Shown in pieces: positions 9,986 through 13,867 of a stretch of 64,000 bases of DNA. Both the position numbers and the translations under genes were made by a program. The DNA lies in assembly GCF_003050935.1 (NCBI RefSeq), contig NZ_QAOX01000008.1, forward strand, positions 124,001-188,000. Direction: 5' to 3'. This DNA is from Luteibacter sp. OK325 (lineage in GTDB: Bacteria; Pseudomonadota; Gammaproteobacteria; Xanthomonadales; Rhodanobacteraceae). Positions within the stretch are counted from its first letter, which is position 1, and every line of letters begins with the position of its first letter. The notes beneath the pieces are model-generated. The model was not told the origin of the DNA and did no database searches. It saw only the letters and a program-made list of their open reading frames with translations.

Positions 9986-12745
9986 ATGGATAAGAGTTTC
10001 GAGCCCAGCCAGATCGAGTCGAAGTGGTACGCCCAGTGGGAGTCCAACGGCTATTTCAAGCCGTCGGGCAAGGGCACGCCCTACACGATCATGCTGCCGC
10101 CGCCCAACGTCACGGGCACGCTGCACATGGGCCATGCGTTCCAGCACACGATCATGGACACCCTGGTCCGGTACCACCGCATGCGTGGCTACGACACCTT
10201 GTGGCAGCTGGGCACCGACCACGCGGGCATTGCCACCGAAATGGTCGTCACCCGCCAGCTCAATGCGGAAGGCAAGCAGCGCTCGGACTTCGACCGCGAA
10301 TCGTTCATCAGCCGCGTATGGGAATGGAAGGCCGAGTCCGGCGATACGATCGGCCGCCAGATGCGCCGCATGGGTGTATCGGGCGACTGGAGCCGCGAAG
10401 TCTTCACCATGGATCCGGGCCCGTCGAAGGCCGTGGTCGAAACCTTCGTGCGCCTGCACGAGGAAGGCCTGATCTACCGTGGCCAGAAGCTGGTCAACTG
10501 GGACCCGGTATTGAAAACCGCGATCTCCGACCTCGAAGTGGTCAGCGAGGAAGAAGACGGTTCAATGTGGTCGATCCGCTATCCGCTTGCGGACGGTTCG
10601 GGCGAACTTGTCGTCGCCACCACCCGCCCGGAAACCATGCTGGGTGACGTCGCCGTCGCCGTGCATCCGGAAGACGAGCGCTACGCGCACCTGATCGGCC
10701 GCATGCTCAGCCTGCCGCTGTCCGACCGCCAGATCCCGATCATCGGCGACGACTACGTCGAGAAAGACTTCGGCACCGGCTGCGTGAAAATCACCCCGGC
10801 GCACGACTTCAACGACTACGCCATCGGCCTGCGTCACAACCTGCCGATGATCAACATTCTCACCGACGACGCGAAGATCAACGACGCGGCGCCGGAGAAA
10901 TACCGCGGTCTGGATCGCTACGTCGCGCGCAAGGCCGTGCTTGCCGACCTCGAAGCCGCCGAGCTCCTGGTCGAAACGAAAAAGCACAAGCTGCAGGTGC
11001 CGCGCGGCGACCGTACCGGCCAGGTCATCGAGCCATACCTCACCTGGCAGTGGTTCGTGAAGATGGACACGCTCGCCGCTCGCGGCCTGCAGCTGGTCGA
11101 ACAGGGCGACGTGAAGTTCGTCCCCGAGAACTGGATCAATACTTACCGTCACTGGCTTGCCAACATCCAGGACTGGTGCATCAGCCGCCAGCTGACCTGG
11201 GGTCACCAGATTCCCGCCTGGTACACGGCCGACGGCGCCATCGTCGTGGCGCATGACGAGAGCGAGGCGAAGGCGAAGGCCGCGGAGCTCGGTTATACCG
11301 GCGCCCTGCGCCGCGACCTCGACGTGCTGGAAACCTGGTTCTCGTCGTCGCTGTGGAGCCATTCCACGCTCGGCTGGCCCGATCCGCAGGCGCAGGCCGA
11401 GCGCGGTTTCGACCGCTACCTGCCGACCAACGTGCTGGTCACCGGCTTCGACATCATCTTCTTCTGGGTCGCCCGGATGATCATGATGACCGACCACTTC
11501 ACCGGCGAAGTGCCGTTCAAGGACGTCTATGTCACGGGCCTGATCCGCGACAAGGACGGCCAGAAGATGTCCAAGTCCAAGGGCAACGTGCTCGACCCGC
11601 TCGACCTCATCGACGGCATCACGCTGGACGATCTGGTGGCCAAGCGCACGAGCAGCCTGATGCAGCCGAAGATGGCCGAGAAGATCGAGAAGGCCACACG
11701 CAAGGAATTCGCCGAAGGCATCCCCGCGTTCGGTGCCGATGCGCTGCGCTTCACCTTCGCCTCGCTTGCTACGCATGGTCGCGACATCAAGTTCGATCTC
11801 GAGCGCGCGGCTGGCTACAAGGCTTTCGTCAACAAGCTGTGGAACGCCTCGCGTTTCGTGCTGATGAACCTCGGTGAAGACGCGAAGGTCACGCCGACGA
11901 AGCCGACGACGGAAGCCGAGCGCTGGATCCTCACCCGCCTGCACGACACGCTGGCGACAGTGAAGGAACAGCTTGCGGGCTATCGCTTCGATCTCGCTGC
12001 CCAGGCGCTGTACGAGTTCACCTGGAATGAGTTCTGCGACTGGTTCCTCGAGCTTTCCAAGCCGGCGCTGAGCGGTAACGACGACGACGCCGTGGCCTCG
12101 ACGCGCTACACCCTCGTCCACGTGCTGGAGACGCTGCTGCGCGCGTTGCATCCGATCATTCCCTTCGTCACCGAAGAGATCTGGCAGAACGTGCGGCCGG
12201 TGCTCGGTATCGAGGGCGAGACGATCATGCTGCGTCCCTACCCCGAAGCCACGGACGTCGAAGCCGATGCCACGGCGACGGCCGAGATCGAATGGGTCAA
12301 GGATGTGCTCACGGGTGTGCGCCGCATCCGTGCCGAGATGAATATCTCGCCGGGCAAGGTCATTCCGCTGCTGTTCGCCGACGGCGATGCCGCCGATCGT
12401 GGACGCGCGGGGAAGTTCGCCGCGCAGATCGCCTTCCTCGGCCGTGTGGAAACGCCGGTCTGGGTCGACGGTGACGAGCCCGCCGCTGCGGTCGGCGTGG
12501 TCGGCGGCATGCGCGTGCTGATCCCGCTGGAAGGCCTGATCGACGTGGGCGCGGAGAAGACCCGCCTGGCCAAGGAGATCGCCCGCATCGAAGGCGAAGT
12601 CCGCAAGTGCGAAGCCAAACTCGGCAATGCGAACTTCGTCGCCAACGCACCTGCCGAGGTCGTCGAACAAGAGCGCCAGCGCATCGCCGACTGGACCCAC
12701 CAGGCGCAGGCCATGCGCGAACAGGTCGTGAAGCTCGGCGGCTGA
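9986..12745 (+). CDS. valS: Valyl-tRNA synthetase
   Basis: ValS charges tRNA-Val in the cytosol. The 919-residue protein starts at ATG 9986 ([11 protein letters not shown]), which matches family N-termini; earlier in-frame codons overlap the helicase. The HIGH motif appears as HMGH (47-50) within [13 protein letters not shown], and KMSKS is at 527-531. Between them is the CP1 editing domain with [10 protein letters not shown] and [12 protein letters not shown]. The [15 protein letters not shown] block and a C-terminal tRNA-binding coiled coil (about 850-915) complete the class Ia enzyme. In many gammaproteobacteria valS follows pepA-holC on the same strand; here it faces them, with about 700 bp of repeats between. 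Confidence 0.98.
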
Positions 12746-12783
12746 CTACGACGGGTTCGGTCCACCGTAGAGGGTGAGGCGCT

Positions 12784-12925
12784 GAGCCTTCGGTGCCCAC
12801 CCTCGCTGCTCAGACAGTCCTCCGCGCTTCGTACCGGAAAGGCCGCTGCGCGGCCCGTGTATCTATCTGGCCTACGGCCGCTCCACTTGTGCGGAACTCG
12901 CCTCGAGGGTGGGCACCGAAGGCTC
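12784..12925. repeat. Large palindromic element, copy A
   Basis: This 142-bp unit is closed by a perfect 22-bp inverted repeat (12784-12805 with 12904-12925). Inside are GC-rich hairpins, including GGCCGCTGCGCGGCC and a GGCC-tac-GGCC palindrome. Its reverse complement aligns over nearly its whole length with copy B at 13128-13265, with a core about 90 percent identical by eye. The outer stem differs from copy B at several positions, yet both stems stay base-paired. Each copy could fold as a closed multibranch structure in DNA or RNA. I do not recognise a named family. Confidence 0.85.
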
Positions 12926-13127
12926 TCCCGAGCCCTGAGGTTCGCGTGGGTCGAGCCAAAGCCGCGCGACAGCATCGTCCGCAGGCACGGCGGCACAGGA
13001 GCGAGGAAGGTGTTCGGCGACCGGGTACCAGCAGCCGCTTCCGCTTCGCCCCGGTGTTCCGGAAGCGGCCGGGGCCGACGACGGCACCACGCCACGGCTC
13101 TCCTCCCACTCAACCGTATCGTTGTGA
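12926..13127. other. 202-bp spacer between the two palindromic elements
   Basis: No credible gene is seen. The spacer holds one clear inverted repeat: CCGCTTCCG (13035-13043) pairs with CGGAAGCGG (13060-13068), overlapping a second pairing of GCCCCGG with CCGGGGC. Open frames run across this segment in several directions, but they come from GC-rich composition and have no start context or recognisable domains. Confidence 0.6.
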
Positions 13128-13265
13128 GAGACCTTGGCGTCCACCCTCGAGGCGAGTTCCGCACAAGTGAGCGGCCGTAGGCCACATAAGACATGGGCCG
13201 CGAAGCGGCCTTCCGCACCGAACGCGGAGGACTGTCTGAGCAGCGAGGGTGGACACCAAGGTCTC
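13128..13265. repeat. Large palindromic element, copy B, inverted relative to A
   Basis: This 138-bp unit is closed by arms 13128-13149 and 13244-13265, which pair at 21 of 22 positions. The core carries GGCCGCGAAGCGGCC (a perfect 6-bp hairpin), GGCCGTAGGCC and TCCGC-accgaac-GCGGA, so three internal hairpins inside a closing stem are plausible. Orientation is opposite to copy A. The outer stem begins GAGACCTTGG here, where copy A read in the same sense begins GAGCCTTCGG; both pair with matching changes on the far side. Confidence 0.85.
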
Positions 13266-13411
13266 CCCCGCGAGACGCCCAAGTGTAGAGAGCCACGACG
13301 AAGCCGAGCCGCCCCGCGAGGCCGGAAGCGAGCCATGCGCGAGGCGCGAGGTGCGAAAGAATGCCCGGCCTGAAAGCCGGGCACCCGGGCCCCGGTAATG
13401 CGTGGAGACCC
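13266..13411. other. Non-coding tail of the repeat region
   Basis: GC-rich sequence without a supportable gene. It ends with a perfect 8-bp hairpin, TGCCCGGC (13362-13369) against GCCGGGCA (13376-13383), which has no T-run after it and so is not an obvious intrinsic terminator. Confidence 0.55.
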
Positions 13412-13440
13412 AAAAAAAATCCCGCCAACTGGCGGGATTC
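13412..13440 (-). terminator. Rho-independent terminator of pepA-holC
   Basis: Read leftward, AATCCCGCC-AGTT-GGCGGGATT forms a 9-bp stem with a 4-base loop, followed by a run of eight T in total. It lies 5 bp after the holC stop codon. Confidence 0.93.
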
Positions 13441-13444
13441 TTTC

Positions 13445-13867
13445 TTACATATCGTGCTTGTTCACTTCAAAGCCGGCTTTCTTGTAGTCCGTCCACCGGC
13501 TACGCGACCCCTCGCGTTCCGCGGGGTCCGCCGCGACCACCTCGAGCACGCGATCGAAACGTCCCGGCGCGCAGACCTCGCGCAGGTTGATCACCATAGG
13601 CCGGTCTGCCACCTCGACGCCCGGCGGCACGATCAGCACCGCCGTGTTCGCGTCATCGTCGTCACCGGCGAGCTGGTGCGGGATGAAACTGTCTTCATCG
13701 AACGACCACAGGTACTCGTCGATCGCCTCGGCCTGCTCGAAATCGCGGGTGAGGATCAGGGTTGGCTGCTGCACACCGAAGGCACGCTTGGCCAGTTCGC
13801 AGACCAGCAGCAGCGGATCCTCGCGAAACCGCGGTTTGTCGATCAGGTAGAAGTCGGCGCGCGGCAT
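13445..13867 (-). CDS. holC: DNA polymerase III chi subunit
   Basis: HolC (chi) joins psi in the clamp-loader complex and binds single-stranded DNA-binding protein at the replication fork. The 140-residue sequence starts PRADFYLIDKPRF and contains LLLVCELAKRAFGVQQPTL, the DEYLWSFDEDSFIPHQL core and the late DRVLEVV and WTDYKKAGFEV segments typical of HolC. Length agrees with E. coli chi (147). It lies 10 bp after pepA on the same transcript and ends at an intrinsic terminator. The YoaA-like helicase gene nearby is of note because chi also binds YoaA in E. coli. Confidence 0.95.
   Translation of the reverse strand: MPRADFYLIDKPRFREDPLLLVCELAKRAFGVQQPTLILTRDFEQAEAIDEYLWSFDEDSFIPHQLAGDDDDANTAVLIVPPGVEVADRPMVINLREVCAPGRFDRVLEVVAADPAEREGSRSRWTDYKKAGFEVNKHDM

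Follow-up and report, generated by a model that had tools for sequence, protein, structure and literature searches.

The two large palindromes located between valS and holC in the soil bacterium Luteibacter sp. OK325 are the arms of a single element. Judged from its sequence, this element is probably a MITE-like, non-autonomous transposable element that carries a pair of structured arms pointing outward. The family has the marks of a MITE, namely ISL3-like terminal repeats, 8-bp target duplications, a short length and no transposase gene. Its interpretation as an ISL3-ended, terminator-targeting MITE family is well supported by the copies compared, and a model in which the arms are paired, face outward and would fold in a strand-specific manner is supported. 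The original prediction was partly supported: it caught the structure correctly and missed the mobile nature. The window refers to the whole stretch of 64,000 nucleotides that was analysed. Its own genome is designated G000, other genomes are numbered G001 and so on, and L numbers denote the loci that were read.

Table 1. Parts of the element and of its insertion site in the window (positions are those of the window)
Feature	Position	Strand	Description
Left outer part, shortened	12746..12783	none	between the valS stop codon and arm A
Arm A	12784..12925	minus (putative folded, RNA-sense strand), leftward out of the element	142 bp
Arm A closing stem	12784-12805/12904-12925		22 bp, GAGCCTTCGG...; halves 22/22 complementary
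Spacer	12926..13127	none	separates arms A and B
Arm B	13128..13265	plus (putative folded strand), rightward out of the element	138 bp
Arm B closing stem	13128-13149/13244-13265		GAGACCTTGG...; halves 95% (21/22) complementary
Right outer part	13266..13389	none	common to other G000 copies (by eye)
Degenerate right terminal inverted repeat	13390..13411	minus	4 mismatches to the 20-base end pattern
Target	13412..13443	minus	A8 run and hairpin, the intrinsic terminator of holC

The palindromes are real, and their closing stems have the pairing and the sequences originally quoted for them. Arms A and B also lie in opposite orientation as described, being inverted repeats of each other with 91% identity over the outer 43 nt and 89% over 44 nt. 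They were taken to be two elements; arm A, the spacer and the inverted arm B instead make up one unit, because an inverted pair of arms was found in 19 of 20 further G000 loci that were read (L009-L028). One arm only is present in L012, and the pair in L027 has one arm truncated. The window element extends rightward beyond arm B as far as position 13411, where its right end adjoins the U-tract of the holC terminator (an A8 run on the given strand). The hairpin at 13412-13443 scored as terminator-like on the plus strand only. No left terminal repeat was recognised in the window copy in the interval that separates arm A from the valS stop codon, and an 8-bp target duplication was not demonstrated for this copy, in which the right end alone is recognisable. 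The flanking genes are convergent, with valS on the plus and holC on the minus strand. A scan of 12600-13520 found no sigma-70-like site, a result of little power at a chance expectation of 0.1. A coding reading of 12784-13265 was rejected: open reading frames exist there, but indels between copies break the frames (by eye).

The same site is occupied in one other genome. The window's HolC protein shares 99% identity with its counterpart in Luteibacter sp. dw_328, whose valS-holC site (L050) carries the element with CCCCGGTAATGGGTGAAGAACC as its right terminal repeat. Among 12 loci named Luteibacter, a valS match lay beside holC in eight, and L050 was the one of these eight readable loci that contained the element. 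The other seven had no arm and an intergenic region of 82-246 bp with other repeats inside, so they provide no clean empty target. In L053 and L058, the site holds another repeat, of type TGTAGGAGCGCGCCTGCGCGCGA or TGTAGGAGCCCACCCTGTGGGCGA, which also occurs in flanks or spacers in G001, G003, and G010. This type resembles GTAG-type REPs and is found close to similar sites.

Copies of the arms are numerous in the window's genome. A search with arm A returned at least 40 near-full matches of 91-100% identity, counting the window copy (scoring covered 40 of 83 candidates). There were 74 hits with a 15-base core pattern, namely 71 exact cores, one variant, and two unrelated hits; the resulting 72 arm cores include a few partial tandem copies. 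Aligned units share an arm A, a ~200-bp spacer, and an inverted arm B within a longer repeat, and a second subfamily has a different spacer (L025, L026, and L028). By exact core pattern, the 72 cores contain 28 adjacent outward pairs. Outward pairs also numbered 22 in G010 (44 of 46 cores), six in G003 (12 of 20), and four in G007 (8 of 20). Pairing is not universal, as the remaining cores of G010, G003, and G007 were single by the exact core pattern, and no inward or same-strand core pairs within 3 kb were found in these three genomes. The polarity of pairs was counted from core positions in G000, G010, G003, and G007.

How widely are the arms distributed? A covariance search with strict filters and 13 scored candidates per genome detected arms in 14 of the family's 233 genomes, and a blastn search found them in 15 of 61 genomes, the window's own counted. 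Every one of these genomes belonged to Luteibacter (14 of the 23 of the genus in the covariance search), so among the genomes searched by either method the arms were found in this genus only. G005 and G018 (weak) were detected by blastn only and G021 (weak) by the covariance search only. Thus, the expectation of many copies in related genomes was borne out. A comparison of 12784-13265 with plasmids and phages gave no match. In L023, tandem units of ~25 bp (GTGACGTAGCAGCGCAGAGCCTTCG) adjoin arm A on the outside and finish with the bases that open its stem. In G008, a complete 308-bp element (L157, 694-1001) has both terminal repeats and T-runs on either side with a single arm.

Evidence for a transposon comes from the ends of the copies, which lie outside the arms and read GGTTC[A/T]TCGCGGA.T.CCGG in opposite orientations left and right. 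Among the two-armed G000 copies, eight were found with both of these ~20-bp inverted ends (L009, L016, L017, L022, L024, L028, L034, and L038) and measure 651-711 bp. Both ends were found, allowing four mismatches or fewer, in copies of G000, G008, G019, and G022. Exact terminal repeats were limited to 7 of 23 Luteibacter genomes, compared to 14 to 15 with arms, depending on the search. The outer ends differ in G001, G003, G007, and G010, so the vehicle of the arms is not established in those genomes. Target duplications of 8 bp were seen in the two copies whose runs are not homopolymeric throughout, CTTTTTTA in L009 and AAAAAAGA in L024. Runs of A or T border both sides of the copies in L016, L022 (a 291-bp copy), L028, L031, and L034, where the length of a duplication is not fixable, and L017, L035, and L038 show no clear target duplication.

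The ends also favour particular sites. Of 45 distinct G000 ends scored with three mismatches or fewer allowed, 43 had a T or A run of at least four bases within 4 bases, compared to 49 of 5000 random positions of the window. Immediately ahead of the run, 26 of the 29 T-run ends had a GC-rich stem with 5 or more bp, compared to 12 of the 96 runs of four or more T in the window, terminators being among those 96; the hairpin test covered the 29 T-run ends, the 14 further ends having A runs. Taken together, the runs at 43 of 45 ends and the hairpins before 26 of 29 T-run ends indicate that copies insert, for the most part, in the U-tracts of intrinsic terminators.

What kind of transposase recognises such ends? 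ISL3-family elements have ~20-bp terminal inverted repeats and make 8-bp AT-rich duplications. An ISL3 transposase was found in G013, where it scored 294.9 bits with NF033550 (cut-off 180) and also matched PF01610, PF13542, and PF14690. The left end of this IS (GGTTCATCGCTGATAACCGT) comes after TTTTTTTT, and its right end (CCCCGGTATTCCACGATGAACC), on a second contig that overlaps the first, comes before TTTTTTTTT. Four more G013 contigs break 2-4 bases past such an end; three of these adjoin T/A runs, and the fourth contig end (C97) adjoins AATTATTTT, which is not a pure run. Arms are absent from the IS sequence that was read. Relatives of the transposase at E <= 1e-30 occur in 18 of 233 Rhodanobacteraceae genomes. 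Of 22 ISL3 loci read by eye with up to three mismatches (L149 and L185 being one place), 15 had like ends beside T or A runs, a few of them interrupted, and none were seen in the other seven.

By protein search, no ISL3 transposase was found in G000 or in 22 of the 23 Luteibacter genomes altogether, G013 alone having one. The sole PF01610 hit in G000 was rejected as a transposase since it is a DesA-type desaturase with an ISL3-like tail (model NF049919). Hits at the same profile positions in other Luteibacter genomes are probably the same desaturase gene, whose identity was checked in G000 and, by its C-terminus, in G013. The terminator of this desaturase gene holds a MITE in G000 (L030, near 1678) and an ISL3-type IS end in G013 (L154, near 1118). 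A 56-aa PF01610 match with an internal stop codon in G020 (C1:123039-123275; L131, L155) is perhaps an ISL3 remnant. Long pairs (1.1-2.6 kb apart) were considered as possible autonomous versions, which would have a gene between their arms, and three of them were read for open reading frames. The frames found were an IS30-like one in L247 (G007) and an IS110-like one in L249 (G001), both named by reading of the sequence, and an unnamed 165-aa frame in L245. In the titles and abstract openings that the literature search covered, mostly those of papers outside subscription journals, nothing was found on ISL3 elements choosing terminators. Likewise, a search for Luteibacter together with MITE, in which subscription journals lay mostly outside the range, found no paper.

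The predicted folds of the arms are far more stable than those of shuffled sequences. As single strands, arm A gave z = -7.6 on the plus and -9.0 on the minus strand, and arm B gave z = -7.0 on the minus and -7.3 on the plus strand; in each of these four folds, none of 200 dinucleotide shuffles was as stable. In an alignment of 39 arms from eight genomes, the consensus fold reached -55.8 kcal/mol in the orientation of copy A, with two of the 22 stem columns unpaired, and -76.3 kcal/mol in the complementary orientation, with all 22 stem columns paired. In the complementary orientation, 99.2% of 1560 cells were paired, compared to 35-47% in slid controls. Double changes were found at 11 pairs, compared to 5.2 in shuffles, with a covariation score of 0.171 compared to 0.067. 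None of 500 shuffles matched the observed covariation, which upholds the claim of paired stem changes, here far beyond shuffles and slid controls. The counts are uncorrected for phylogeny, and because the arm sequences are related they are not to be read as probabilities. The inner hairpin covaries as well, with C-G replaced by G-C at columns 74/83 and G-C by C-G at columns 75/82.

The imperfect pairs of the 22-bp stem indicate which strand would fold. In 93 distinct arms read as copy A, there were 78 A·C and 8 G·T pairs. The split of A·C to G·T was 25 to 0 in A-type arms, 35 to 7 in B-type arms, and 18 to 1 in the others. Extending the set to 13 genomes (158 of 160 arms) gave 105 A·C and 10 G·T pairs. 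When each was counted once per genome, column, and pair, the numbers were 35 and 7 (binomial 1.5e-5, uncorrected for descent); since the copies are related by descent, all such counts exaggerate independence. A control for mutation in the inner columns found 16 C>T and 15 G>A changes, with no bias on that strand. Substitutions in the stem halves were unequal, with eight C>T and three G>A in the 5' half and six G>A and two C>T in the 3' half. The A·C pairs of the copy A reading are G·U pairs on the complementary strand. In other words, G·U is tolerated on one strand only. A cruciform would fold on both strands and produce no such bias, so the asymmetry speaks more for a fold on one strand, whether of RNA or of single-stranded DNA. 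A folded RNA or a cruciform had been put forward originally; a one-strand fold stands, and the cruciform is disfavoured. RNA is the simplest reading of the asymmetry, with a single DNA strand as the alternative. Because the arms are inverted, the strand that would fold points outward from the spacer on both sides.

The element had also been proposed as a new, unnamed class. In agreement with this, Rfam had no match to the window's arms up to E = 1, but the ends and targets of the element are those of an ISL3-type transposon. Sub-threshold Rfam matches outside the arms (Leu_leader, SNORA43, Ysr276, Thr_leader, several eukaryotic miRNAs, and others) were taken as chance.

The arms are better conserved than the sequence between them. 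Within G000 (16 of 21 units), the mean pairwise identity was 97.1% and 94.1% for the two arms and 83.4% for the spacers. When G000 was compared with six pairs of four other species, identities were 84-95% in the arms and 27-61% in the spacers, where gaps were scored as differences, so that the lowest spacer values partly reflect length.

Some arms are longer. In G001, G007, and G010 there are arms that measure ~240 nt and share the closing stem, other arms being 138-144 nt. Three G001 loci (L171, L238, and L239) have elements that combine a long arm with a short one of 139-140 nt. The long arms of G010 gave five matches to TwoAYGGAY (RF01731) at 26.1-34.6 bits, below the gathering score of 43, each on the outward strand as judged from core positions. 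In 19 long arms, the outward strand had 22 ANGGAN sites, 18 of them in loops of stems of at least 4 pairs, compared to 19 sites and none in loops on the other strand. At least one such loop was present in all 12 long arms of G007 and G010 and in none of the seven of G001; examples from G010 and G007 are L235 (608-854), L175 (696-936), L254, L245, and L246. In 38 short arms, none of them from G000, the outward strand had one site and no ANGGAN loop, and the other strand had eight sites and two loops. The two arms of the window have no ANGGAN site on the outward strand (by eye). CsrA sites are described as hairpins with GGA in the loop, usually occurring two together, and TwoAYGGAY is proposed to bind CsrA (PMC4333381). 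This likeness suggests CsrA/RsmA as a candidate partner of the long arms in two related species. The loops were found after the fact and say nothing about the short arms of the window, and their restriction to the outward strand of the long arms fits the outward polarity.

Could the arms act as DNA instead? A hairpin formed by one DNA strand may be the substrate of a recombinase or of a HUH (RAYT-like) transposase, comparable to REP doublets or integron attC sites. The inverted pair around a spacer is arranged as in REPINs, the strand asymmetry fits a single DNA strand too, and Y1_Tnp genes, which are RAYT candidates, are present in 22 of 23 Luteibacter genomes. However, they are equally common without arms (seven of seven genomes in which no arm was found), complete elements have terminal inverted repeats and target duplications, and the inner hairpin has, at its GTAG-like position, the variants GCAG and GAAG. 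HUH enzymes, to our knowledge, make neither terminal inverted repeats nor target duplications. We consider this explanation unlikely. An element spread in trans by a reverse transcriptase, like a retron, is very improbable. A long base stem with a conserved interior does resemble a retron ncRNA in outline, but the ends and duplications are those of a DNA transposon, RVT_1 (PF00078) was found in 5 of 23 Luteibacter genomes and not in G000, and arm matches occurred in only G010 and G018 of those five.

Two further explanations were considered. Template switching offers a way of correcting long palindromes, and hairpin-templated repair or conversion may keep the stems complementary without selection, with the arms as passive filling of a MITE; in line with this, 11 of the 24 pairs in the long helix were invariant across the 39 arms. 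Such repair alone predicts similar numbers of A·C and G·T pairs, yet 105 and 10 were found. Furthermore, arms A and B are no more alike within an element than between elements (0.886 in both cases, 16 units), and the inner core is conserved between species but the spacers are not. This explanation has a low probability in our judgement. A benefit to the host may alternatively explain why the element is retained: between genes, it may stop transcription in both directions or stabilise mRNA 3' ends. Nearly all scored ends lie beside terminators, the window copy sits between the convergent valS and holC, and the folds are very stable. On the other hand, the valS-holC site was filled in one of eight readable Luteibacter loci, host terminators remain intact beside the element, and a simple stem would need far less sequence conservation than the core shows, which together make a host function of this kind improbable.

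The favoured reading is a MITE-like element with paired outward arms. An ISL3-type transposase supplied in trans may move it, as suggested by the like ends, the type of target, and the one site shared with the G013 IS. An 8-bp duplication inside the U-tract would leave a terminator tail on either side, and with a tail on both sides the insertion would be nearly harmless. Each arm would be a structured RNA, or else a folded single strand of DNA, whose reading runs outward from the spacer; its retention may reflect a need for the fold in spreading the element or in a product of the element. Our preferred guess is that the two arms give regulatory RNAs, one in each outward direction, with a protein as their binding partner. 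A fuller model is tentative and, in our estimate, plausible rather than probable: a new structured RNA specific to Luteibacter, present in divergent pairs at tens per genome, may ride on successive DNA-transposon vehicles that target terminators, its fold being needed for spread and the long arms of some species serving as mobile decoys of the global regulator CsrA/RsmA. We judge it rare to find together a transposon in terminator U-tracts that would leave two tails, arms more conserved than their spacer, and a strand-specific signature of RNA folding. Whether functional structured RNA is carried by small mobile elements of bacteria could be tested on this family, which is also a natural system in which to study insertion targeted to terminators.

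The ends and targets of the element are like those of the ISL3 IS of Luteibacter G013. It differs from that IS in that it has no transposase, shares the ends alone, and carries two inverted structured arms absent from the IS. Its targeting of terminator U-tracts sets it apart from ISL3 elements and MITEs generally. Class C group II introns also settle just downstream of intrinsic terminators, but they are retroelements with a ribozyme and a reverse transcriptase. The long arms of G007 and G010 resemble CsrA/RsmA-binding sRNAs such as RsmY and CsrB in having ANGGAN hairpin loops on the outward strand, whereas the short arms of the window have no such loop and no match reaches the gathering score. 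REPINs consist of two inverted palindromic units around a spacer, are intergenic, and occur in many copies (PMC3116915). The element shares this arrangement with the REPINs and BIMEs moved by RAYTs. However, the units of REPINs are 20-40 nt, whereas its arms are ~140 nt and come with terminal inverted repeats and target duplications; a conserved GTAG-type tag of the REPIN kind is not present in the arm fold. ERIC, YPAL, and NEMIS fold strongly near gene ends. No sequence relation of the arms to these repeats or to RU elements is known to us. RU elements are enterobacterial palindromic intergenic repeats of 100-170 bp, described as MITE-like (PMC2759123). Unlike ERIC, YPAL, NEMIS, and RU elements, the arms appear as inverted pairs in an ISL3-ended element, and the strand that would fold has a fixed polarity.
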